This document shows positions 2,438 through 14,826 of a stretch of 35,805 nucleotides of DNA, piece after piece. The DNA lies in IMG/VR virus record IMGVR_UViG_3300000553_003130, positions 1 through 35,805 of that record; one strand, given 5' to 3'. Each line of letters opens with the position of its first letter. Within the stretch, counting starts at the first letter, position 1. Made by a program: the position numbers and the translations under genes. The notes under the pieces are model-generated. The model did not search any database. It was not told where the DNA came from and was given only the letters and a program-made list of their open reading frames with translations. This stretch comes from a virus.

Positions 2438-3892
2438 TTACGCGCTATACACATTCGGCGGATAGAGGCTGGGCGCGCTCACAGTTGAGGTCTTGCCGCC
2501 GTTATAGAACGTGGCATCACCTGGGAACCCTGAGCGGGTCGGCAAACCGGCGGTGTAGCGGACACTGGTAAGACGAGCCGCCAAGAACGGCGTGTCCATG
2601 CGAATGCGGGTCATTTCAACCCCCAGGAAGCTGACGCAGAAATTGTCATTCTGGCGCACAAAGGCGTACCGGCCCGCGTCGGTAGTAAAGTACTTGCCAG
2701 TGATGCCAAACACCTGTGAGGCCTGCTGAAGCGCCCCGTCGCCATCGAAGTTGAAGTACTCCGTATAGGTTGCGGGGGTGTTGCCCAAGACGGTCACGGG
2801 GATAAAATAGATCGTCGATTCGAACACATTGCCGCCAATGGCAGTCTGGGCAATGGCGTCATCAAGAACCACCGGCACCTGAATGCCGTTGATCATGAGG
2901 AATCGACCTGTGCGCAACGAATCGCGCATTTGAGCGGCATCCATAGAGTTGACCTGCAGCTGAGTGTTGGTCTGTGCGCCAGCGATCACGGTTGTTGCCG
3001 TGGTAGCGTACGCAATTGGCCACACCTTGGTCAGCTCATAGAACATGTCACGGGCCATCGCAATCTTGAACGACACGGGCGAGAGGCCTGTGCGATCCGC
3101 GATCGATACCAACGCGCGATGCATGTCCTGGATCAGCCCCACCAGGTTCGTTGCTGCCGTGCCAGACGTGCTAAAGTTCTGAGAACTAAAGCTCTGCAGC
3201 AGGGAATTGGCCGCGGGGCACCACACACCGGTTTCAGCGTCCTGATACCCTGTGTTGATCAGCAGGTCCAGCCCGTTGAATTCCTTGTAGCCATCGCCCA
3301 AGTTGTTGACGGGATTACCGGCGTAAATCAACTTCGCAAACTCGCGGGCCCAACCAATGCGGAACTGCATCATTTGCTTCTGCACTTCACTGGTGATGGC
3401 CTGTGAAATGCCCCCGTTTGGCAATGTGGGGGTCGCCCCGTTGGTGATCGTGGAGTTCATCGGATCGCCAATCAAGCGGAAGTCCGAGAAGTAGCCACGA
3501 TTGGTAAACTGGCCAACACGGGTCAAGTCAATCGTTGGTGTCTTGAGAGACATACGACCGAACTTGGTTGTGATGTTGCACAGTTTTGCCAAACCAACCT
3601 GCTTGGTGTCGCCGCATGGCGCGGCGCTAAACGAACCTGTGCTAGCGGTCACACCTGTGAACAACGGGGTCAACGGCTGCATCTGATTGGTGAAGGTCAC
3701 CGGCAATGCTGCCTGCAAGCCCAGTTCGGGCAGGATCATCGCATTGATAATCCCAGGATTCAAACCGGGGGTATTGAACAAGCCACCATTGCCGAACGCG
3801 TAAGTAGCGTTTGGGTTTTGGGTGCCAGTATCCTTATACCCTTCGGCGACTGGCACAAACTGGCCAGACTCAGTACGTACGAAAAAGTCCAT
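2438..3892 (-). CDS. Probable major capsid protein
   Basis: This 484-residue soluble protein has no recognisable catalytic motif. It sits directly after the protease/scaffold gene, the usual place for an HK97-fold major capsid protein. The composition, rich in Asn, Thr, Gly and beta-prone stretches with a long helix near residues 180-200 (EVQKQMMQFRIGWAREF), fits a capsid subunit. I chose the ATG at 3892 because GGAGGT lies 7 nt upstream; the longer frame would need a TTG at 3907. Residues about 28-47 contain NATYAFGNGGLFNTPGLNPG, and a close copy occurs at the N-terminus of the metallopeptidase gene at 5418-6287. The assignment rests on context and general appearance, so an encapsulating-shell homolog of another type cannot be excluded. 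Confidence 0.7.
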   Translation of the reverse strand: MDFFVRTESGQFVPVAEGYKDTGTQNPNATYAFGNGGLFNTPGLNPGIINAMILPELGLQAALPVTFTNQMQPLTPLFTGVTASTGSFSAAPCGDTKQVGLAKLCNITTKFGRMSLKTPTIDLTRVGQFTNRGYFSDFRLIGDPMNSTITNGATPTLPNGGISQAITSEVQKQMMQFRIGWAREFAKLIYAGNPVNNLGDGYKEFNGLDLLINTGYQDAETGVWCPAANSLLQSFSSQNFSTSGTAATNLVGLIQDMHRALVSIADRTGLSPVSFKIAMARDMFYELTKVWPIAYATTATTVIAGAQTNTQLQVNSMDAAQMRDSLRTGRFLMINGIQVPVVLDDAIAQTAIGGNVFESTIYFIPVTVLGNTPATYTEYFNFDGDGALQQASQVFGITGKYFTTDAGRYAFVRQNDNFCVSFLGVEMTRIRMDTPFLAARLTSVRYTAGLPTRSGFPGDATFYNGGKTSTVSAPSLYPPNVYSA

Positions 3893-3918
3893 GTCTACTA
3901 CCTCCAAAACAACGGGGT

Positions 3919-5421
3919 CTAACGCCCCAACAAGCCCGGCAGGCCTTCAAGGGCGTGTGCTACCAGCGGGTCCATGTACTGAACGGGTTGCTGAAGTTCC
4001 TTGCGAGCGACGGTTTCAGGAGCTGCCGATGCACGGAAACCTGGGCGCTGCGGGGCATCGCCTTCGAGTTCCTTAAGCCGGTCGTTCAAATCCAAGAGTC
4101 GCTGGTCAGCGAGTTCCTTGGTTTTCACACCTGCCTGCTCCATGGCGGCGATCCGGTTACTGAGTTCCTTCGTTCCTGAGAGGATCAGTTGTGCCAACAT
4201 GGTTGCCAGGGCTTCCTGCAATTCGCCGATCGTCATGTCGGCAATGCTAGGCCCGCTCGCGCCGGTTTCATCACCTTCGGCCGTTGCCTCATCAGGTGAT
4301 TCGCCGGCCTCTTCTTCGGTCGAGCCTTCAGGCCACAGACCCTCTGCAGGCGCGGGAGCCTTGGGCTCAGCAGCTGCAGTAGCAGCAGGCGGACCTCCAA
4401 ACGGCGAACCGGGCTTCTTGGCAGCAACGCCATCGGCCACCGCCTTATAACGGACACCGTCTTTAACGATCTCCTGTTCCTTCTGGGCAAGACCAGTCAC
4501 ATACTCTTTGGCCTTCCCTTCGTCCCCGATAAGGGCGACGAACTCCTTCCACTTCTCGTCTAAAGTCGCCATACTGTTCTCCTTATGCACTGTTATAGCA
4601 GTGTATGGATTCGCTGCCCTTTCATTTCGCAGCACCGAACGTTCGAATTTCCTTACGTGATGATAAACACCATCACTATCAGGCTCAGTAATTGGATACA
4701 GGAAGCCCAGCGATGCCGCGTAGTCGTCCTGATGTTCCTTAATCTTTTGGCCGATGAAGTCGTCCTTAAACGTCCCCGATTCGACCAACGTATGACCAGA
4801 CATTGCATTGAAGTCGCATGTTCCAATGTCTACGCCACTGCCCGGGACTCCCATGTGCCAAAACCGTAACGGTCCGTAGTCCCCAGTGCGATCACAGCGG
4901 TCGCAATCTTCCGCTAATGACTTGTAGGACAGGATCTCCCCTTCACGATCTTCGAAAGCATTGCTGGAAGTGATAATCCACCGCAACTTACCGTCGTTTT
5001 GCTTGAAGATTGCTAGATTGCCGACTTCTTTGCCGACAAACTGCTCAAAGCTTTGCTGCAGGGCCTCCAACGGGTTGACTTCAGCTTCGCGTCCACCAGC
5101 GGCCTTCTTGAAGGCATCCATAAGCCCCTTATGAACTGGTTTCTCACGTACAGAGGTGCGCTTGCCTGCAGGAGCTTTACCTTTACTGTGCGCCCCCGAT
5201 TCAGATTTGCCTCCACTTCCGCCCCCAGCCGCTCCGGGGTCATAGGTGCCGCGGTCGTGCATGTTAGCCATAGCGGCATTCTGCTGTTCCTGCGAGCTAA
5301 ATTCCTTCGTTTCAATAACGTCCCCAGGTATTTCATTGTTACTAACAGCCCATACGAACAATGCAAAGGCTTCAGTAGCTCCTTTTTCGATCATGTCGGA
5401 TACAAACGCTTCTTTGTTCAC
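3919..5421 (-). CDS. Prohead protease fused to scaffold-like C-terminus
   Basis: The protein has 500 residues. Residues about 135-290 resemble phage prohead proteases of the XkdF/S78 type: TSSNAFEDREGEILSYKS, then FWHMG with a candidate catalytic His189, then VESGTF with candidate Ser215. After residue 340 the chain becomes Ala/Pro/Glu-rich and then predicted helical (TIGELQEALATMLAQLIL and a Leu-rich heptad region), as expected for an internal scaffold released by proteolysis. The N-terminal 100 residues contain a Gly/Ser-rich stretch near 62-80. The gene lies just upstream of the capsid gene in transcription order, the standard protease-scaffold-capsid arrangement. Its start overlaps the stop of the metallopeptidase gene by 4 nt. 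Catalytic residues are assigned by motif only. Confidence 0.75.
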   Translation of the reverse strand: MNKEAFVSDMIEKGATEAFALFVWAVSNNEIPGDVIETKEFSSQEQQNAAMANMHDRGTYDPGAAGGGSGGKSESGAHSKGKAPAGKRTSVREKPVHKGLMDAFKKAAGGREAEVNPLEALQQSFEQFVGKEVGNLAIFKQNDGKLRWIITSSNAFEDREGEILSYKSLAEDCDRCDRTGDYGPLRFWHMGVPGSGVDIGTCDFNAMSGHTLVESGTFKDDFIGQKIKEHQDDYAASLGFLYPITEPDSDGVYHHVRKFERSVLRNERAANPYTAITVHKENSMATLDEKWKEFVALIGDEGKAKEYVTGLAQKEQEIVKDGVRYKAVADGVAAKKPGSPFGGPPAATAAAEPKAPAPAEGLWPEGSTEEEAGESPDEATAEGDETGASGPSIADMTIGELQEALATMLAQLILSGTKELSNRIAAMEQAGVKTKELADQRLLDLNDRLKELEGDAPQRPGFRASAAPETVARKELQQPVQYMDPLVAHALEGLPGLLGR

Positions 5422-6287
5422 TTAATCCATCCCCGTTTGGCAAACATGTCGTCAATGGCCTTTCCAATTGGCTTGAACGATTTGTGGGACCACATACCAC
5501 TCACGCTGCCTATCTTGTTTAGTCGATCGACTGCCCCTTTCATGGCAATATCCCCACTACGCGTAGCTATATATTGCGAATACGCTCGTGCCCATATCTC
5601 GTGGGGTTGAGTCAGATATTCGGCGTACTTGGCTACGCTGGCTCCAGCTGGAGCGCCACTTAGTTTGCCCGATTTCCATTCAGCATGTTCAGGCGACGCT
5701 TGAACCGCCTTCATAAACGGCGCGAATTCTTTTGCACCATTGCGAGCTCCCCCCTCCATCCCGGCCCCTTCAATATAATGCCCCATCTCATGCACAGCGA
5801 ATAATTTCTGATCGTCTTCACTACTGGCCTTGCTTAGTCCAATCTCAACCGGCCGACCATCTACAGTTTGCTTATAATACCCAAGCGTCTGTTTGCCCCC
5901 AGTCGCAACTACGGGCACTTTTGGCATGTCGTCTAATGAATGAACGGAGTTGATTACCTTCGCCGCATCCCTTGCAATGCCTGGGGTCTTAGATGTCGCT
6001 TGCAGGAAACTAGTAATCTTTGGGCCATCCCCGGGAGAATGGCTTTCGCCGTCGTCGCCTCCGCCCCCGTCCCCGCTCTCACTGCCACCGATCTCCCCGG
6101 GACGCCCTCCATGATCAAAGTCTCCAGAACTGGCGCTGCCCTTAACACCTACCTTAATGCCCGTTTTCTTCTTGGACTTGCCAACCTTACGATTGAGTCC
6201 CAAGCCCGGCGTGTTGAAGAGTCCGCCGGGCCCGTAAGCCATTACGGCATTCGGGGATTGATCGCCGACATCTTTGGTCTTAAACAT
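5418..6287 (-). CDS. Zinc metallopeptidase-like protein with Gly-rich tag
   Basis: The protein has 289 residues in three parts. Residues 1-35 contain NAVMAYGPGGLFNTPGL, nearly the same as a stretch in the capsid protein. Residues about 46-75 carry a glycine-rich tag (GSASSGDFDHGGRPGEIGG) like those in the portal fusion. The rest holds a zinc-binding HExxH (H166-E-M-G-H170), followed about 70 residues later by HEIWARAY, a downstream Glu-x-x-Ala-Arg-Ala pattern seen in gluzincin-like domains of phage and polyvalent proteins. It is therefore probably an active zincin. No signal peptide or membrane segment is visible. It sits between a methyltransferase and the protease/scaffold in the head operon, suggesting either an assembly role or a packaged effector. 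The substrate is unknown. Confidence 0.75.
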   Translation of the reverse strand: MFKTKDVGDQSPNAVMAYGPGGLFNTPGLGLNRKVGKSKKKTGIKVGVKGSASSGDFDHGGRPGEIGGSESGDGGGGDDGESHSPGDGPKITSFLQATSKTPGIARDAAKVINSVHSLDDMPKVPVVATGGKQTLGYYKQTVDGRPVEIGLSKASSEDDQKLFAVHEMGHYIEGAGMEGGARNGAKEFAPFMKAVQASPEHAEWKSGKLSGAPAGASVAKYAEYLTQPHEIWARAYSQYIATRSGDIAMKGAVDRLNKIGSVSGMWSHKSFKPIGKAIDDMFAKRGWIK

Positions 6288-6912
6288 GGTGTATTACCGC
6301 CATATACCGATAAATGTGGATCTCGTCGATCTCAAGCTCACGACCTGTCAATAGCTTCTTTTCAATTGGGGCGACATTGTCAAGACGCGCTGCCGCTGTC
6401 TTGCCGCGGCCATGAAGATCGTCCTGAAGCACACCCCCTATGAAAGCTACGGCTCTTCGCGGCGAATCCTTATAGCTAGTATAGTTCGGATGAAGGTCTT
6501 CGATGGCATAGATCCCGCCGACTCGCACATACGGCCACAGGGCCTCAAACGAAAGGATCTGGTGTTCAGGGTTGTGGGATCCGTCATCGATGATAATGTC
6601 CCATGGACCAAGATGTTCGGCCATGTTAACTAGCGACGGTGTGGATGACTGGTCCGCTTGCCATAAACGACAGTGCTCGGGTGTACGCTTACATCGTTCG
6701 ATATTGATGTCGGCGCCTACAATGGTCGCTTTCGGGAAGTACTTCGCCCACATCTGTAGCGATGCCCCTTCCCACACGCCGATCTCTAAAACCTTAAGCG
6801 GCTGATCCCGCAAAGCATCGAAATGCCGAGCATAGTACTTAGTGTATCCATGCCCATTGGATGCCTTATCAGGAATCGGGTCGCAACTTAGGGCGATTTC
6901 GTCTAATGTCAT
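6280..6912 (-). CDS. Class I SAM-dependent methyltransferase, macrocin O-methyltransferase-like
   Basis: This 210-residue protein has a clear Rossmann methyltransferase fold. Motif I is VLEIGVWEGA at residues 41-50, an acidic residue ends the second strand (IVGADI, D68), and the motif IIIDDGSHNPEHQ at 107-119 is typical of the CmcI/TylF-like group that methylates sugar or other hydroxyls, often with a metal ion. There is no DNA methyltransferase DPPY-type motif, so DNA is an unlikely substrate. The gene lies among glycosyltransferases and structural genes, which fits methylation of a virion glycan; this is inference. It overlaps the genes on both sides by 4-8 nt. The 13-base motif GGGGGTGTGCTTC occurs inside it on the coding strand (6426-6438). 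Confidence 0.8.
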   Translation of the reverse strand: MTLDEIALSCDPIPDKASNGHGYTKYYARHFDALRDQPLKVLEIGVWEGASLQMWAKYFPKATIVGADINIERCKRTPEHCRLWQADQSSTPSLVNMAEHLGPWDIIIDDGSHNPEHQILSFEALWPYVRVGGIYAIEDLHPNYTSYKDSPRRAVAFIGGVLQDDLHGRGKTAAARLDNVAPIEKKLLTGRELEIDEIHIYRYMAVIHHV

Positions 6913-7247
6913 TGGGACAATAATTCCTTGATCCCTGTAACCATGTCGCCGTACTGAGTCTCTTCTTTGAGCCCCGCAAACGGCCCTGCGTTTCTGGCCA
7001 TGCGCCCCTGCATCCCAACCGCGTGCCCCTGCGCGCGAAGCCGCGCCCTTCCATTGGCACGGGCTTGCTGTTGCTGCCGATCGTATCCAGGAGCTCCGGG
7101 GTTAAGCCGTTTACCGAGAGGCTTTTCAGTGTTGCGGCCGCCTCCAGGATGAGGTCCACTTCCTGGCCCGCCCTTATAACGAACGGCAACTTCTTTGAAC
7201 ATTGCCGCCAACTTGTATGCAACATCGTCAATTACTTCTTGGTCCAT
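6909..7247 (-). CDS. Small basic protein with Gly-rich tag
   Basis: I do not recognise this 112-residue protein. After a short helical N-terminus (MDQEVIDDVAYKLAAMFKEV) it carries YKGGPGSGPHPGGGRN at residues about 24-39, a shorter version of the tag in the portal fusion and metallopeptidase. The middle is Arg/Gln/Ala-rich and probably disordered (RQQQQARANGRARLRAQG). The C-terminus (about 85-112) may be helical. It overlaps the glycosyltransferase upstream and the methyltransferase downstream, so it is part of the head operon. It may be a small virion protein or an adaptor that uses the same tag. Confidence 0.6.
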   Translation of the reverse strand: MDQEVIDDVAYKLAAMFKEVAVRYKGGPGSGPHPGGGRNTEKPLGKRLNPGAPGYDRQQQQARANGRARLRAQGHAVGMQGRMARNAGPFAGLKEETQYGDMVTGIKELLSQ

Positions 7248-7867
7248 GTTATTGGAAATCCTTGAGCTTCCCGCTCACGATAGACACGTCCATCTTCAAG
7301 GTGATATTGTTCACCCAAACGATACGTTTCGTCATGCTGGGCTAAACCCAGCGTATAATGGTTATGCTTGATGACTATTTGCTGGGTCTTGGTGTACCGG
7401 CCGGCTTTGCGGGCATGCCAACATACTTCCCAATCAGCCCACCAAGACTTATACACTGGCGGCAGAAGCACACCCCCAAGAACCTCTTTGCAAAACGCCT
7501 TGGTCATTAACCATTGGCCCGTGATCACCGCGCTGTATGCGTCGCCTTCATTAAGTCCAATAAAGCCCTGGTTCGGGGTGTTCATGCATTCGTCAAACCA
7601 TCCCGGGAGTGCGACATCATCGTCCATAAACGTCATTATCCATTCATGTTTTGCGTGTTGTGCCCCATAGTTAAACTTGGCTATGGCATCCGAATCAAGC
7701 ATCAACAGTGTGTCAACCCCCGCTTTAGTAGCCATCCGATAAGTCTCATGGTCGCCCGCAATCACTACGATGTCCGGGGCGCCCACAGGCGCGCCATCAC
7801 GTAAGCTCTTGATGGCGTTCCATAATAGTTCAGGCCTGCCGCGGGATGGAATGATACTACTTACCAT
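7232..7867 (-). CDS. GT-A family glycosyltransferase
   Basis: This 211-residue protein begins with a short strand and loop typical of GT2-like enzymes (SSIIPSRGRPELLWNAIKSL) and carries WIMTFMDDDVALPGWFD near residue 80, with the expected DxD. Residues about 125-150 (SWWADWEVCWHARKAG) resemble the acceptor-side region containing a conserved acidic residue and Trp. No membrane segment is visible. It is the third glycosyltransferase of this array and lies between a gp10-like protein and the small tagged protein, with overlaps at both ends. Residues near 130 read LGGVLLPP, encoded by the repeated motif GGGGGTGTGCTTC (7465-7477). Sugar donor and acceptor are unknown. Confidence 0.75.
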   Translation of the reverse strand: MVSSIIPSRGRPELLWNAIKSLRDGAPVGAPDIVVIAGDHETYRMATKAGVDTLLMLDSDAIAKFNYGAQHAKHEWIMTFMDDDVALPGWFDECMNTPNQGFIGLNEGDAYSAVITGQWLMTKAFCKEVLGGVLLPPVYKSWWADWEVCWHARKAGRYTKTQQIVIKHNHYTLGLAQHDETYRLGEQYHLEDGRVYREREAQGFPITWTKK

Positions 7868-8484: not shown

Positions 8485-11400
8485 CTAGAAGGTCCTGCGT
8501 ATCCGAGCTTGTTGTGTGTACTTACCCTTTAGAATGAACTCTTGCTCACTAGCGCATCCTAAACCCGTCGACCAATGTGCAAACACCGCTTCCTTTGGGA
8601 CCTTGACTTTTAACACTACACCACGATTGCCTTCTCGGGCAAAGTCCTCTGCAACCGTCGGTGCTGTGGTCCAAGACGATAATGGTCGAGACTTAACGTT
8701 AACTAGTTCGCTTTCCTGGGGAAATGAACTAGCCCCGCTAATACCAGATTCACTCATTTTCTTATCGAAATGGACGCCACGGTACAGAGTTATCATCTCG
8801 CCATCTTTAACGCCGGCTTCGGTCAGAGCTTGCTGAGTCCGGGCGTAGATGTCCTTGTAGGCTACTTTAGCTGCTGCCTGAGACATCGAATTCTTTTCCG
8901 CGTTGGCAGTCTTCATGCCCCCCGACTCCTGCATATCAGCCCACCCGTCTTGTCTTCCGGCCTCGACCTGGAGATAGTCGGACATTGATCCACTATCGTT
9001 AGAGGAGTCAGCCCAGTCACTTAACAACGTACGACCCCTAGAACTCGGTATGCCTTGAGCCACCAATGCCGCACCTAAGGCCTTTTCCCCAGCTTCCTTA
9101 AGTGCCTGGCGACCTATGGTAGATGCGTGCCACTCAATCTTGTTGTAGGTGGCGTCACTGATCTCAGGGGCCGTGTCGTTAATTCCTGAACCACTACCTT
9201 CGCCAGATCCTCCGACTTCGCCTTCGCGACCGCTGTGGTCGAAGTTTCCAGACCCTTCGCCGCCTTTGAAAATGATGCCAAGCTCTTTGACGATGGCTGC
9301 CTTGATCGTGTCAGGCTTGTCGGGGTTGAAGCCGTCAATGTGTTCGGCATTGGCCCGTTTAACACCAGTAACCTTGATTTGGTCCTTGGCTAGGGCGCCG
9401 ATCCGTCGTGCCATTGAGTTTCGTTGGTCGGCTGTGTTGTCCCAGGCTCGCTCAAACCAGTTATTAGAGACTGCAGGTCCGACATGTTTTGTGTAGACCA
9501 GCTCGCCATCGGACCCAGGGAATACCAAGTATCCTTTTGGGTCTTTAGGCCCGAAACCACGTCGTCCATACAGACTACTGCGGACCACGACTTCGGGTCT
9601 TTCAGGACTGCCGGCGTAAACACGTAATTGGATGTCAGGACTGCCACGCCCCTCCACTAAATGCCTGATGCTGTCCCGCAACTTGCCTGACTCACCAGAC
9701 GTTCCACTTTGAGGACATTCGTCTTGCGCGGCCAGAACTAGGATCCGACCATACTCGTCTAGTTCGTCTGCCACTTTTTCCAGGTACATTGATTCCCCCA
9801 TTGAGGGTTCGTTGGAATCAATCAACTCCGCCCGTTTTGGGGAGATCGTCGTTAGATCTACGGTCGATCTCTCCTTAACCTTCTTGTCGTGTATGGCGGT
9901 ATGAACTATCGCATTAGTCGTGTACTTACCCTTAATGACGTATTCTTGTTCGTTGGCACACCCAAACCCCGTATGCCATGAGGCAAATATAGCCTTACGT
10001 GGGATCTGAGCCTGGATGATGACATGATGGGATCCGATGCCCAAGAAACCTTTGGCGATGTCGACATTCATAGTCCACGATGACAATGGCCGTGCATGTA
10101 CGCGTACCTTATCGCCGGCCTCGATCTTGGTAGTGTGGTACCCGAGGACGCCGCCTTCCTTAACCTTGTCGTAGCCGATGCCGCGATACATGGTTACGAA
10201 GTCGTCTTCTCCCCATCCAAGGCCGGCTAGGTATTCTTGGGTCCTGTCATATTGGGCCTTATAAATGTTCTGCCGTTCCTCAGCTCGAGCACTGTCGCCC
10301 CCTTCATCTCTGACGACAGTCTCCATACCTTTCGAGACATCCATGCTCTTCCAGCTATCGAGCTCTGCTCCAGCTTGTTGCATGGCGTCCTGATATCCAC
10401 CGCTATCATTGGACATATTCGCCCAAGATGCCAGGATGTTGTTGGCATAGCGCTCTTGGATACCTGCCTTAGCGGCCAGTTCTTTTGCGCCTTTGGCTTT
10501 AATAGCCCCGCGGTCTTTTATCGTGCCCTTGAACATTAAGTTCTTTAGTACATTATTGCCAACTGGCTGGCCGCCTTCGCCAGATCCTCCGACTTCGCCT
10601 TCGCGACCGCTGTGGTCGAAGTTGCCTGAACTAGCCGATCCCTTGGTACCTACCTTAGGCGCAAAGGCAGTAGACACTGCTTGCTGGACCTGCGGCAACG
10701 TCGCTGGAGGCATTTGTGCATTGGGGTCAATTACGCCCGGTTGAGCTGGAGGCACACCCCCCAGGCTTGCGTCAGCCGCACTATCGCCCTGCAAATCCGG
10801 GTTGTCGGTATCTTGGACCGTCTCGATTTGCGTTAACGGGGCAGGTACGAACTCTTTCGGTATGTCGCCTACATCCGCTGCCATCTGTTGCGACTGTTGA
10901 GCTGTAATCTCGCCACTTGCAATCTGCGCTTGCCGGGTTTGAGCTCGAGTAAGACGGACCTGTGCTTCGGCTTGCTGATCCCGCCAGTCCTTCTCGCTGA
11001 ACGCAAATGTCGTGGCGTTGCCTACAATCCCACGCAAGTTAAGCTGCTCGGCGAATGACTGGAACCACCCGAACTTGCCGTGCTCTTTGTCATCCAGGAC
11101 CTGCGACTGCGTGGCTGTGCCCATTGCTCGTCCCGTTAAGGGCTGAAGCTCCTGTGGGTCCAGGCCTATTGCGTCAGCATAGCGAAGATAGGCGTCCTGT
11201 CGTTCCTTATCGACATCAACACGGTCAGGGATTTCAGCCAGCTTGACCGTTACTACTTCAGGCTTAAGGTCCGATTGGGTTGCAACAATTGCCGCGCCCA
11301 TATAGGTCGTCAAGCCTTGCTGGTCCGCGACCAATTGAGCCCCTTGCAGTGATCCATCGATCTGCTTCTGCGACAGGTTACTAACAAATATCAGTTCCAA

Positions 11401-12075
11401 TGGTCTGCGCCCCGAAGCCTTCTCGGAAATGTACTTCTCGATATTCGCCAGTTTGTAGATCGTTGAGTAAGCCCGTGAGGCTGCGCAGAATCCAACGCCC
11501 CGCATGGTCGCCGAAGGACTCGGCATGTCTACCACGCTGAACACTTGATGCCACTTAAGTTCGTGTTCAATGCCTACATAGTCGCGGTACACAACAGGGA
11601 CTTCATCGTCGCCTGTACGGCGACATCGCAGACTGTCAAGATGGGCTAACCCCATTATCTTGCTGCCGGCTCCGCTGGTGGCTCGTATGATCTCAACAAA
11701 CGCACCGTTGTCAGTACATAGGAAATCAAATCCGTGTTGTGCAATGAAGTATCGCCAACCGCGTAAGAAGTTCACGCCACTAAGTAGTTCGTGGGCTTGT
11801 TTGGTCTTGCGGGGGCTGCCTTCTACCGACCAGCCGGCCGATTGCATTTTAGTAACCGAGATCCCGACGGCTGAACCCCACATCGTCTCGGCCAATGTTG
11901 TAGCTCGCAATACGATGTCTCGGTTGTAGGTCCAGTACACCGGAGGCTCGGGGGGCAATGCCGTCAGAGGAGCCGTCTGCATGAACGGCATCATGTAGAA
12001 GTTGTACTGCATGAGCTTCTGCTCATCCAGAGTTACCGACTTCTTTCTAGTGTCAACGGGTAGTGCGTCTGCCAT
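8485..12075 (-). CDS. Portal protein fused to two ADP-ribosyltransferase-like domains
   Basis: The protein has 1196 residues, far above the 450-550 usual for portals. Residues 1 to about 400 look like a portal, including LTGRAMGTATQSQVLDDKEHG near 315, and a Gln/Pro-rich linker follows. Residues 479-501 are a glycine-rich tag (GSGNFDHSGREGEVGG-type). The first ADP-ribosyltransferase-like domain has Arg631 (MYRGI), Ser665-Ser-Trp-Thr668 and Glu709-Gln-Glu711, the R-S-ExE pattern of arginine-specific enzymes. Residues about 770-930 resemble a gp10-like connector. A second tag lies at 936-958, then a second ADP-ribosyltransferase-like domain with Arg1099, Ser1133-Thr1136 and Glu1177-Gln-Glu1179, at exactly the same spacing. 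No stop interrupts the frame. It lies 2 nt after TerL. Portal identity is from context plus appearance; transferase activity is inferred from the triads. Confidence 0.8.
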   Translation of the reverse strand: MADALPVDTRKKSVTLDEQKLMQYNFYMMPFMQTAPLTALPPEPPVYWTYNRDIVLRATTLAETMWGSAVGISVTKMQSAGWSVEGSPRKTKQAHELLSGVNFLRGWRYFIAQHGFDFLCTDNGAFVEIIRATSGAGSKIMGLAHLDSLRCRRTGDDEVPVVYRDYVGIEHELKWHQVFSVVDMPSPSATMRGVGFCAASRAYSTIYKLANIEKYISEKASGRRPLELIFVSNLSQKQIDGSLQGAQLVADQQGLTTYMGAAIVATQSDLKPEVVTVKLAEIPDRVDVDKERQDAYLRYADAIGLDPQELQPLTGRAMGTATQSQVLDDKEHGKFGWFQSFAEQLNLRGIVGNATTFAFSEKDWRDQQAEAQVRLTRAQTRQAQIASGEITAQQSQQMAADVGDIPKEFVPAPLTQIETVQDTDNPDLQGDSAADASLGGVPPAQPGVIDPNAQMPPATLPQVQQAVSTAFAPKVGTKGSASSGNFDHSGREGEVGGSGEGGQPVGNNVLKNLMFKGTIKDRGAIKAKGAKELAAKAGIQERYANNILASWANMSNDSGGYQDAMQQAGAELDSWKSMDVSKGMETVVRDEGGDSARAEERQNIYKAQYDRTQEYLAGLGWGEDDFVTMYRGIGYDKVKEGGVLGYHTTKIEAGDKVRVHARPLSSWTMNVDIAKGFLGIGSHHVIIQAQIPRKAIFASWHTGFGCANEQEYVIKGKYTTNAIVHTAIHDKKVKERSTVDLTTISPKRAELIDSNEPSMGESMYLEKVADELDEYGRILVLAAQDECPQSGTSGESGKLRDSIRHLVEGRGSPDIQLRVYAGSPERPEVVVRSSLYGRRGFGPKDPKGYLVFPGSDGELVYTKHVGPAVSNNWFERAWDNTADQRNSMARRIGALAKDQIKVTGVKRANAEHIDGFNPDKPDTIKAAIVKELGIIFKGGEGSGNFDHSGREGEVGGSGEGSGSGINDTAPEISDATYNKIEWHASTIGRQALKEAGEKALGAALVAQGIPSSRGRTLLSDWADSSNDSGSMSDYLQVEAGRQDGWADMQESGGMKTANAEKNSMSQAAAKVAYKDIYARTQQALTEAGVKDGEMITLYRGVHFDKKMSESGISGASSFPQESELVNVKSRPLSSWTTAPTVAEDFAREGNRGVVLKVKVPKEAVFAHWSTGLGCASEQEFILKGKYTQQARIRRTF
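9197..9246 (-). repeat. 50-bp direct repeat copy 2 inside the portal fusion
   Basis: This 50-bp stretch is identical to 10574-10623. It encodes the core of the second glycine-rich tag (SGNFDHSGREGEVGGSGEG). The flanking codons differ. Confidence 0.9.
10574..10623 (-). repeat. 50-bp direct repeat copy 1 inside the portal fusion
   Basis: Identical to 9197-9246 and encoding the core of the first glycine-rich tag. The adjacent ADP-ribosyltransferase domains have diverged far more, so the tag DNA is either under unusual constraint or was recently copied. Confidence 0.9.
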
Positions 12076-12077
12076 AA

Positions 12078-13490
12078 TTAAAGCGGGAGTTTAAGACATC
12101 GATAGGATGCCATGCTAAGCGCCACCGCTAAGTCAATCTTTCTAGACGATTCACGCTTAACGATACGTATCTTGCGTGACTCGGTATCGACCTTCTTATT
12201 CGCGTTGTCGACATGTTCCCTGAGTGGATTCGTGCCGTCATGAAATATACGGGTCTGAACGATCAAATCGTGCAGCCCCTTGTCCGCCTCAAGCCGGTCG
12301 TTGGCTTGGTTGAACTCACGAGTCATGACAGTACCATTGCGCTGAAGCCGAGTCGCCATGTCATGTAACTGATAGGGATCGTAGGCCAATTGGACCACAT
12401 TCCAGGTATTGCACACCTGCGTGATCGCGGCTTCAACGGCCGAGAAGTCTATTTGTCCATTTCGTGGGGGCTTCCATTCACGTACCACGCGAACCGCTAT
12501 TGCGTCATTTGCCTGAGGATGCCGGGACACCCCCACCAATGCGAAGCTGTCATTGTTCACACCTGCGTCTGCTGCTAATACGATCGGCACTCGCTTATCC
12601 CAATGCGGCTCATCCCAACGACATCGGTCCCATAAGAACATGTCGGCTAAGAACTTCTCGGTGTCGGACGCTGAGAATGCCTCAGCCGGCGTATTCGGGT
12701 ATTCCTGTTGCAACAGGGCTTCGGAGATTGAATCGCGGGCCACACCTGCATACCACGCATCATCACGATCAGGACGTGCACGCCAGTTTAGGAATAGCGG
12801 CTTGAAGCTATTGAGCCCCGCTGCCGCCTTTTCCCACAGACTCGCAAACAGGTTGCTATTGCCGACTGCTGTCGACACTATGATCAACTGTCCGCCTCCG
12901 TCCACTGTAGGTTTCATACTGGTGTACAAGTCGTTCGCCCATACCATCTTTGCGAACTCGTCTGCCAAGACAAAGCTGGCTGTGAAACTACTGCCGGCGG
13001 TTTTAGTAGCCGCCTGGGCCTTAATGCGCGACCCGTTACTGAACTTTAACTCTTCGGTATTGCCCGTCATCACTGGCAGGTCGACCTTCATGCTGTCGGG
13101 CATCCGGTTGTACATGCCCTGAATACGCCTAACCATTTCGGCGGCTTCCTCTAGACCCTTACTGAAGATCAGCCCCGTCTTCATCGGCCAGTACAAGCAC
13201 TTCCAAAGGGCATACCCGCAAAGCAGCCATGAAATCCCCAACTGCCGGGCCTTAAGGATAATCACCCGCATTGAATGCTCGATCTCGGTAAGCATTTCGT
13301 CCTGCGCGGGCCAGGTGTCGAACGGGATGATCCCCACCTGCCCATCGGCCTGCGGGTCCTCAATCGTTAAGCGACGAATGAACTCAGCCGGCTTGGGGAT
13401 CCGTGTCCTCAGCAGCCGGTCGACTTCCGCTAACTCCTGTGGCGTAAGATATTGGCGGAGTTCAGTTAGTTCAGCCGCCAATGAACCCAT
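12078..13490 (-). CDS. terL: Terminase large subunit
   Basis: This 470-residue protein is the packaging motor, with an N-terminal ATPase and a C-terminal nuclease. A deviant Walker A is seen at residues 80-87 (KARQLGIS), and Walker B with catalytic acid at FVLADEF (D177, E178). The nuclease half has ADAGVNND, an internal DPYQ and a late KIDLAVALSMA, giving the acidic metal ligands of the RNase H-like fold. Length is normal for TerL. The start at 13490 follows an AGGTG sequence and overlaps the HNH gene by 20 nt. TerS, HNH and TerL together, followed by the portal, form the standard packaging block. Confidence 0.9.
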   Translation of the reverse strand: MGSLAAELTELRQYLTPQELAEVDRLLRTRIPKPAEFIRRLTIEDPQADGQVGIIPFDTWPAQDEMLTEIEHSMRVIILKARQLGISWLLCGYALWKCLYWPMKTGLIFSKGLEEAAEMVRRIQGMYNRMPDSMKVDLPVMTGNTEELKFSNGSRIKAQAATKTAGSSFTASFVLADEFAKMVWANDLYTSMKPTVDGGGQLIIVSTAVGNSNLFASLWEKAAAGLNSFKPLFLNWRARPDRDDAWYAGVARDSISEALLQQEYPNTPAEAFSASDTEKFLADMFLWDRCRWDEPHWDKRVPIVLAADAGVNNDSFALVGVSRHPQANDAIAVRVVREWKPPRNGQIDFSAVEAAITQVCNTWNVVQLAYDPYQLHDMATRLQRNGTVMTREFNQANDRLEADKGLHDLIVQTRIFHDGTNPLREHVDNANKKVDTESRKIRIVKRESSRKIDLAVALSMASYRCLKLPL

Positions 13491-13800
13491 TTGGTTGCAC
13501 CTGAATGTAATCGGTCATCGCGTAAAGGGTTCCGACGTTCTCCTTAAGGAGCCCTAACGTCGTATTACAAGCGTGACAAAGCAGCCCCCGGATCTCGTCC
13601 GTTCCGTGATCGTGATCTATCTGCAACAAGGTCGAAGAAGATTGTTTGCAAATCGCGCAAACACCGTTTTGGGATTCTAAAAGGACATCGTACTCTTTAG
13701 GCAGGAGCCCGTACTTGTGTTTTAAGTTGTACACACGCCGTTCGTCTTTATGCGTTCGGCGGTACTCTGCCATATAGGCCTTATGGACTTTGGTTACCAT
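13471..13800 (-). CDS. HNH endonuclease, endonuclease VII-like
   Basis: This 109-residue protein matches the recombination endonuclease VII/HNH group: GVCAICKQ with a CxxC pair, the catalytic LQIDHDHGTDEIRGLLC, and a second CxxC (CHAC), so zinc is probably bound by four Cys around a beta-beta-alpha metal site. An N-terminal basic helix (MAEYRRTHKDERRVYNLKHKYG) may bind DNA. I chose the ATG at 13800 because GGAAG precedes it; a longer frame to 13827 lacks a good site. It sits between TerS and TerL, where HNH proteins often assist terminase cleavage during packaging, which is its likely role. A free-standing homing endonuclease is the alternative. Confidence 0.85.
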   Translation of the reverse strand: MVTKVHKAYMAEYRRTHKDERRVYNLKHKYGLLPKEYDVLLESQNGVCAICKQSSSTLLQIDHDHGTDEIRGLLCHACNTTLGLLKENVGTLYAMTDYIQVQPNGFIGG

Positions 13801-14344
13801 CTTCTTCCTTTCGCTTACGAGCGGCATTCAACAAAGCTTCAATCCTGGCCGCCCTTTCTTCATCCCCTAAACCAAGGTACTCATGCGCTCCTGTGGGATC
13901 AGTAAGGGCAATCTTCTCAACGAATAGCCCCCCGATCTTGGCTAACTGAATAAGGGCATTCTGGGCGTCGTACATGTCGATCTTGATATTAAGAGTGCCG
14001 TCTTCCTTGACCGTCTGTACCACGCTTTTTAGCAATGCCGTTGGGGCTTCTTCGGTCAAAACAACCATGCCCGCTTCATCTAAGAAGTCTCCGACATCGC
14101 CCCTGGCCTGTGCGGCCAAACGAGCTACCACTTCACGAGCAGACATCTCGACATCCTTAAGATATTCGGCAATGTACTCTTTGACTTGCGGATCGCGCAT
14201 CATACGATTAAACGCATCGCGTACATTCTGCCGACATGGGGAGTAGCCTGCCTTAACGATCGCCCCCCGCTTACTCCACGTACGGACATACTCCGCTGCG
14301 AAAACCCTTTTCTTCTCGCTCGTGATTGCTTGTAGATCTGCCAT
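13781..14344 (-). CDS. terS: Terminase small subunit
   Basis: This 187-residue protein looks like a Terminase_2-type small subunit. The N-terminal region (KKRVFAAEYVRTWSKRGAIVKAGYSP followed by a helix with MMRDPQVKEYI) is the typical TerS helix-turn-helix with the phrase AxxAGYS. It binds the packaging site and regulates TerL. The rest is helical, with an acidic central oligomerisation region and a basic C-terminal tail (ARKRKEEDG). It directly precedes the HNH and TerL genes, overlapping the former by 20 nt, and its ATG abuts the ferritin stop. Length is normal for the family. Confidence 0.85.
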   Translation of the reverse strand: MADLQAITSEKKRVFAAEYVRTWSKRGAIVKAGYSPCRQNVRDAFNRMMRDPQVKEYIAEYLKDVEMSAREVVARLAAQARGDVGDFLDEAGMVVLTEEAPTALLKSVVQTVKEDGTLNIKIDMYDAQNALIQLAKIGGLFVEKIALTDPTGAHEYLGLGDEERAARIEALLNAARKRKEEDGNQSP

Positions 14345-14826
14345 TACAACTCGCCCATGTCATGGTCAATGGTGTCCAGTTTATCGCCGTACGCCTTGAA
14401 CCACCCTTCAATAATCCGTAACTCCGCCAGACTCTTGGTCTGTTCATCCACAAACCACCCGAGCATTTGCATGGTTTGAGCATCGCTTGCCGCAAAGGCT
14501 GTGTACCATAACGTCCCAATGGCCATGGTAACTTCAAGCTCTAATTCCACTGCCCCTTCGATCGTGTCGTAAAGCGAAGTGTAAACAAATGGCTTGGGGC
14601 TTACTGTGGGCACAATGGCAATGGCATCGAAGTCCGTTAGGTACTTCATGAACATGTCACGGTGCTTGATCTCGTCAGCCGACGCCTTCTCAAAGTACTT
14701 AGCAGCCCCCTGAAAGCCGGCTCGATCACATGCCATGCTCAGGCCCTTATACGACAGACTGGCCGTTTGCTCGCGACCTATCTGATCGTTGACCGCCTGA
14801 ACAATGCTGTCTAGTAGTATGTTCAC
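14344..14826 (-). CDS. Ferritin-like protein with complete ferroxidase ligands
   Basis: This 160-residue four-helix protein matches bacterial ferritin. Helix A has Glu19 (GREQTASLSYKGLS). Helix B has Glu52-x-x-His55 (ADEIKHRDMFMKYL). Later helices have Glu94/Glu98 and WFVDEQTKS with Glu128-Gln129. These correspond in order and spacing to the E17, E50, H53, E94 and E126-Q127 set known in E. coli FtnA, so an active iron-oxidising centre is likely. No signal peptide is present. It lies between a small Gly-rich protein and TerS, overlapping both by 1-4 nt. Its role in infection could be iron scavenging, protection of DNA from peroxide, or a virion component; the sequence does not decide. Confidence 0.85.
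   Translation of the reverse strand: MNILLDSIVQAVNDQIGREQTASLSYKGLSMACDRAGFQGAAKYFEKASADEIKHRDMFMKYLTDFDAIAIVPTVSPKPFVYTSLYDTIEGAVELELEVTMAIGTLWYTAFAASDAQTMQMLGWFVDEQTKSLAELRIIEGWFKAYGDKLDTIDHDMGEL

Follow-up and report, generated by a model that had tools for sequence, protein, structure and literature searches.

The window analysed here is the entire IMG/VR virus record IMGVR_UViG_3300000553_003130, 35,805 bases without any N, and on its minus strand, as the gene immediately downstream of the large terminase subunit gene (TerL), lies an open reading frame (ORF) in which a portal domain, a glycine-rich tag, an ADP-ribosyltransferase (ART) domain, a neck-like domain, a second tag and a second ART domain follow each other in one chain (Table 1). 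The frame opens with ATG and runs through 1196 codons with zero internal stops, which confirms the single unbroken frame of the original prediction, where the strand had not been given. That the glycine-rich tag is a general feature, recurring in many other phages, was overlooked in that prediction, and cutting of the chain at its tags is the reading proposed below.

When comparing the two tag+ART segments, 37% identity over 260 residues was found (E = 4e-44), far beyond chance, and the segments are therefore true homologs; with copies that are 37% identical, a tandem origin of the ART by recent duplication was rejected. The catalytic residues proposed earlier were recovered at exactly the same positions, R631, S665-S666-W667-T668 and E709-Q710-E711 in ART1 and R1099, S1133-S1134-W1135-T1136 and E1177-Q1178-E1179 in ART2, and so was their equal spacing, with 34 residues from R to S and 44 from S to E in both copies. 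In an alignment of 16 members from the window and other loci (L numbers denote the sequences compared) the R is invariant, the S and E are near-invariant and E-x-E is found in most, including both window ARTs. Nine of the 16 match the Pfam family DRAT (best 4.4e-7), and these matches together with the conserved R-S-ExE back the presence of two ART-type domains. DRAT, the closest Pfam family of the group, is that of dinitrogenase reductase ADP-ribosyltransferase (DraT), an enzyme of the R-S-E type, but the window copies score below its cut-off and stand in a phage head context, nitrogenase is implausible as a common target, and from their sequence they are filed as DRAT-like and not as DraT. 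E-x-E commonly marks an ART as arginine-specific, for which reason arginine is the predicted acceptor and both domains are putative arginine ADP-ribosyltransferases.

Structure prediction, suggested earlier as a check, gave a confident AlphaFold2 model for ART2 (predicted local distance difference test (pLDDT) 84.7, predicted template modelling score 0.84), and the nine best matches in the PDB were all R-S-E ARTs, the first being Vis with nicotinamide adenine dinucleotide (4xzj), but with a best E-value of 0.034 the fold search is suggestive only. A profile of the ART family gave no significant match to ModA or to the ADPrib_exo_Tox modules recognised by Pfam and a collinear but weak alignment to ModB (E = 0.003, probability 11%), while PHROG 832 was weakly matched by two family members. 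In L007-L010 a related ART is fused to a minor head protein of the MuF type, and in L004 one lies behind a 2H domain and a tag; DRAT-like ARTs occur in 20 tag ORFs, none of these a portal. L005 (4943-7528) and L006 (5464-7605) each carry two ARTs of this family in tandem, without the tag; in L005 a repeat module, LWDHGxCLGVWYxHxCV, precedes each ART and may be another type of tag. The full-length protein returned nothing useful from Pfam, PHROGs, PDB sequences or IMG/VR, and a search of annotated phages gave Bacillus phage SP-15 gp258 (L003 3260-4669) as the sole match, a protein annotated as hypothetical that contains a window-type ART with R, SS and ExE conserved.

The portal domain is 43-46% identical to the post-terminase genes of L057 and L056, relatives retrieved by a terminase search, and L060 and L071 hold more distant portal relatives in the same place, both matching the PHROG portal family phrog_146. 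With the first 470 residues no useful direct match to Pfam or PHROG was obtained. The portal model is of low confidence (mean pLDDT 55, template modelling (TM) scores of about 0.35 to its PDB matches), and in a Foldseek search of the PDB all 50 of the 50 listed matches were portals or necks, with a best E-value of 2.9e-6 and 54 matches at or below 1e-3. The portal-matching homologs, the position after TerL and the Foldseek portals bear out the portal-like N-terminus of the original prediction, and judged by homology and predicted fold its identity is secure.

The middle domain, earlier labelled gp10-like, is 38-43% identical to a region fused to the portal of L057 and to a separate gene of L056, and the label is reasonable because this L056 gene weakly matches the tail completion/Neck1 family phrog_5 of PHROG (E = 0.006). 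In L057 portal and middle domain are fused in an ORF of 722 codons without ART and without tag, in L056 they are encoded by separate genes, and neither tag nor ART was found anywhere in the records of these two relatives. The two tag-ART cassettes were thus probably gained in this phage, and in the simplest history one cassette entered between portal and middle domain and the other at the C-terminus of the middle domain; cassette loss in both L056 and L057 would be an alternative, not favoured as the simplest.

Besides the two tags in the portal chain, the window holds a third near the N-terminus of a zincin-like protein and a shorter variant in a further ORF, and all four sites are preceded by K. 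The window tags deviate from the general consensus (FDH, GRE and, in two of three, GSASSG) and are still K-preceded. Tags 1 and 2 have 50 identical bases in common (9197-9246 and 10574-10623), which we take as the trace of a recent exchange and which gene conversion between these two tags fits.

A pattern search for the tag, with the consensus GGxGSG[NH][FY]GHxGRPGxxGGS, turned up 43 IMG/VR stretches that contain it; a wider pattern gave at least 120, together with 20 bacterial genome stretches (Clostridia, Oxalobacter, Desulfosporosinus, Sulfuricaulis and others). The bacterial carriers include Desulfosporosinus sp. PR and Clostridiales bacterium CCNA10, both with portal-tag ORFs, and Oxalobacter paraformigenes HOxBLS. 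In all, 295 distinct tag contexts in 150 loci show a sharply bounded core, and the tags are a median of 216 residues apart. The conservation is partly fixed by the search patterns; at the edges outside the pattern, in the first tag set, GGxGSG precedes 117 of 118 tags and S follows 118 of 118. The highest number of tags per ORF, ten, was found in a 2611-aa ORF of L033 (3262-11094, minus strand), where they recur every 150-330 residues in an apparent chain of tag-delimited modules. Searching phages and plasmids with the tag peptide by tblastn gave no match, low-complexity masking being the probable cause, and the tag strings led to no paper among the open-access papers searched.

By their Pfam and PHROG matches the tagged ORFs are head proteins (portal, MuF, head maturation protease) that bear effectors (ADPrib_exo_Tox, ART-PolyVal, DRAT, PARP, Zeta, NUDIX, 2H, topoisomerase IB, PBECR2, InPase, GNAT, zincins and nucleases). 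According to a portal profile 22 of the 245 tag ORFs are portals, all with the tag behind the portal core, with about 90-600 residues after the last tag and in some cases with more than one tag, up to three. Among them L032 has the order portal-tag-ADPrib_exo_Tox and L027 portal-tag-Zeta, while the portal of L118 comes with 2H and topoisomerase IB. An intein splicing domain was matched in 2 of the 66 tagged ORFs of the second set (1.8e-7).

When comparing the tags within one genome, the four-fold degenerate sites were found to agree at near chance level in most loci, and since the peptide is conserved, selection acts on the peptide and not on the DNA; that gene conversion in general made the tags uniform was rejected for the same reason. 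In 43 of 57 contig clusters every tag has the same residue before GG (for instance 12/12 R, 11/11 N and 8/8 K), where 5.3 clusters were expected and 14 was the maximum in 5000 shuffles, and this residue differs among phages, being L, K, D, R or N. Such uniformity suggests one trans-acting reader per phage, the natural reading of these sequences being that its specificity changes together with all its tags, and the P1 pocket of a protease would fit best. Tag variants common to whole genomes were also seen (HRGHKGRPG, NIGHAGRPG and NHGHxGVPGQ; L108, L119, L176, L178 and L209) and appear to be further signs of tags evolving together.

The tagged zincin-like protein matches the PHROG family 4529, minor head protein and DNA pilot (5e-5), and LPD1 (0.013). 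A peptide at its start resembles the N-terminal arm (N-arm) of the probable major capsid protein, with 18 of 25 residues and 43 of 75 bases identical and a score of 99, none of 2000 shuffles scoring above 52, and K is the first residue of both peptides. Homologs of the probable major capsid protein are found at 49% in L056 and L057, and the N-arm region of L057 reads K-SVGS, which resembles K103/S104-LGS of phage HK97 (a slash marks a cut). The shared peptide suggests handling of the zincin by the machinery of head assembly or maturation, and the copy is possibly a capsid-targeting or maturation mimic. The candidate head maturation protease/scaffold gene has homologs in the same position in L056, L057 and L071 and matches the PHROG head maturation protease at E = 0.084 only.

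Table 1. Features of the window, their coordinates and the basis of each assignment
Feature	Position	Strand	Residues, sequence or motif	Basis
Whole ORF, portal / tag 1 / ART1 / neck-like / tag 2 / ART2	8485..12075	-	1196 aa	Reading-frame analysis
Portal domain	10816..12075	-	Residues 1 to about 420	Homologs and Foldseek
Tag 1, N-terminal half variant	10582..10644	-	Residues 478-498, KGSASSGNFDHSGREGEVGGS	Motif comparison
ART1, DRAT-like R-S-ExE domain	9871..10569	-	R631, S665-T668, E709-E711	Alignment; homologs in 20 tag ORFs
Neck-like (gp10-like) middle domain	9286..9870	-	Residues about 736-930	Homology to L057/L056
Tag 2	9205..9267	-	Residues 937-957, KGGEGSGNFDHSGREGEVGGS	Motif comparison
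ART2, DRAT-like R-S-ExE domain	8488..9204	-	R1099, S1133-T1136, E1177-E1179	Alignment, AlphaFold2 model
Large terminase subunit, directly upstream of the portal ORF	12078..13490	-		Pfam TerL_nuclease 1.6e-15
Tagged zincin-like probable cargo protein	5418..6287	-	289 aa, HEMGH	HExxH motif
Tag 3, near N-terminus of zincin-like ORF 5418-6287	6081..6143	-	KGSASSGDFDHGGRPGEIGGS	Motif comparison
Shorter tag variant in ORF 6909-7247	7134..7175	-	KGGPGSGPHPGGGR (also given as KGGPGSGPHPGGG)	Preceded by K
N-arm copy peptide, start of zincin-like protein	6201..6275	-	25 residues, KDVGDQSPNAVMAYGPGGLFNTPGL	Comparison with major capsid protein
N-arm peptide in probable major capsid protein (ORF 2438-3907)	3761..3835	-	KDTGTQNPNATYAFGNGGLFNTPGL	Comparison with zincin
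Candidate head maturation protease/scaffold gene, between zincin and major capsid protein	3919..5421	-		Position before major capsid protein
Ferritin-like protein, beside small terminase gene	14344-14826	-		Pfam Ferritin 4.5e-22
Endonuclease VII-like gene, between small and large terminase subunits	13471-13827	-		8.4e-19
Two glycosyltransferase-like and one methyltransferase-like genes, in or beside head module	1761-2432, 6280-6912, 7232-7867	-		Pfam/PHROG

MuF and portal head proteins fused to ART, 2H, zincin and nuclease effectors have been described as polyvalent proteins and are considered to be packaged in the virion and injected (Iyer et al. 2017, PMC5512222). The chain in the window, with a portal, two ARTs and a neck-like domain beside TerL, resembles them in combining domains of disparate function within a single chain linked to head and packaging genes. 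Viral ARTs joined to MuF or to a portal, with their genes next to those for terminase and portal, have also been reported (PMC9503650); what sets the window apart is a pair of DRAT-like ARTs on a single portal, with a conserved tag ahead of each. The passages found by term search in these two papers do not describe the tag, and the ones drawn on from PMC5512222 contain neither the tag GGxGSG-NFGHAGRPG-EVGGS nor a genome-specific preceding residue, the word 'linker' having 0 occurrences. The exact order portal-ART-neck-ART was not found elsewhere. Among phage R-S-E ARTs, Alt, ModA and ModB of T4, of which Alt is packaged and injected, are separate proteins and not portal fusions, and no tag is reported for them. 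Of the original interpretation the portal identity and the two ART-type domains stand, while the novelty of ARTs on a portal was overstated, as head- or portal-fused ARTs had been described in the two sources above and portal-tag-effector ORFs recur in at least 22 others. Fusion of a portal to effectors is accordingly not unique, 22 other portals carrying the tag, and the portal with two DRAT-like ARTs is a new arrangement of known parts.

Portal C-termini usually face the procapsid interior. In the reading that we favour, with a probability of roughly one half, 12 copies of the polyprotein would build the portal, and their C-terminal extensions (tag-ART1, neck-like domain, tag-ART2) would be made with the head and come to lie in the procapsid interior. 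As the head matures, a protease specific to the phage, in all likelihood its head maturation protease, would cut at the tags, probably just after the residue preceding GG (Lys at all four window sites), and two DRAT-like ARTs and the tagged zincin would be freed inside the capsid. At infection the freed enzymes would exit with the DNA and ADP-ribosylate host targets early. Precedents are the prohead protease of SPN3US, which cuts portal and ejection proteins with the P1 site AXE/ (PMC10052503), and the maturation cleavage of HK97 at K103/S104 (PMC10275583), where the sequence is NK/SLGS. In those systems the P1 residue is phage-specific and the capsid protein is cut, whereas the proposed substrate here would be a long internal Gly-rich tag between effectors. 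Resemblances to cleavage sites that were noticed post hoc, KN/SM in L214, where the tags all have N, and K before AAV in L212, were not used as evidence.

The up to 24 transferase domains on the portal ring envisaged in the original prediction would exist only if the chain stayed uncut, which is judged less likely than processing. The ARTs would then act in place and not as free injected enzymes, and their targets would be phage proteins or such host proteins as come into contact with the ring or its DNA. The ORF is indeed open throughout, covalent fusion is tolerated in the tagless portal-neck protein of L057, and local protection of the packaging machinery is raised in PMC9503650 as an alternative role for head-linked ARTs; a neck-like domain behind a C-terminus inside the capsid is, however, hard to place without cutting, and an inert tether would not need conserved tags between domains with a genome-specific residue before them. 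Of much the same low probability is a reading in which the tag is not a cutting site but serves for docking or loading, or as a specific structural linker: a component of the capsid or scaffold would bind it, and the effectors would thereby be retained and loaded. A motif of twenty residues in which a His and an Arg are fixed, and which head proteins share with cargo, would suit such a role, which would equally account for one reader per phage, and the separate N-arm peptide of the zincin suggests docking by mimicry, but up to 10 tags per chain, about one domain apart, exceed what loading needs, and the residue that is genome-specific stands right at the border of the motif, where a P1 residue would be expected.

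That the tag is a functionless, recombination-friendly linker spread by cassette shuffling seems highly improbable: exchange or conversion through the tag does happen, as tags 1 and 2 share 50 bases while their ARTs are 37% identical, but elsewhere the near-random synonymous sites beside an invariant peptide require selection on the peptide. Even less credence is given to an assembly chimera of portal, neck-like and ART pieces from separate genes or genomes. The exact 50-base repeat at both tags could invite such an error in a sequence known from its assembly, but it is shorter than usual reads, GC content and third-position GC are level over portal, ART1, middle domain and ART2 with the frame likewise even, L057 has the portal-neck fusion independently, and portal-tag-effector ORFs were seen again in 22 other sequences.

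Several observations weigh against cutting at the tags and release of active ARTs. The window ARTs reach 12.7-12.9 bits, below the Pfam DRAT cut-off of 25, and the fold matches of ART2 are rank-based, with TM scores of at most 0.31, and not significant alone. Related ARTs lack a tag of the window type in L005, L006, L007 and phage SP-15, and the portal-neck fusion of L057 lacks any tag, so that fusion must be tolerated or processed otherwise. A modest codon excess at position -2, the residue before GG (agreement 0.515 against 0.383 expected), means that the signal is in part due to common descent of the tags of one genome, and aligning capsid cleavage sites with HK97 gave nothing, the capsid proteins not being alignable.

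The loading, release and injection of effectors fused to head proteins is a standing question in the study of phage polyvalent proteins, and one tag that can be recognised by its sequence and has a genome-specific residue at its edge makes this question testable. It predicts the cut sites in these chains and which phages carry injected enzymes, and effector domains as yet unknown could be found by looking behind it. We tentatively suggest that many phages make head polyproteins (portal, MuF, maturation protease) with a 20-residue tag for each effector module, that the maturation protease of each phage, its specificity coevolving with the residue before the tag, cuts them within the capsid and so arms the virion with several injected enzymes, and that the portal described here is one instance. 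A portal with two ARTs suggests that early ADP-ribosylation may be worth a twelve-fold, two-domain dosing to the phage.

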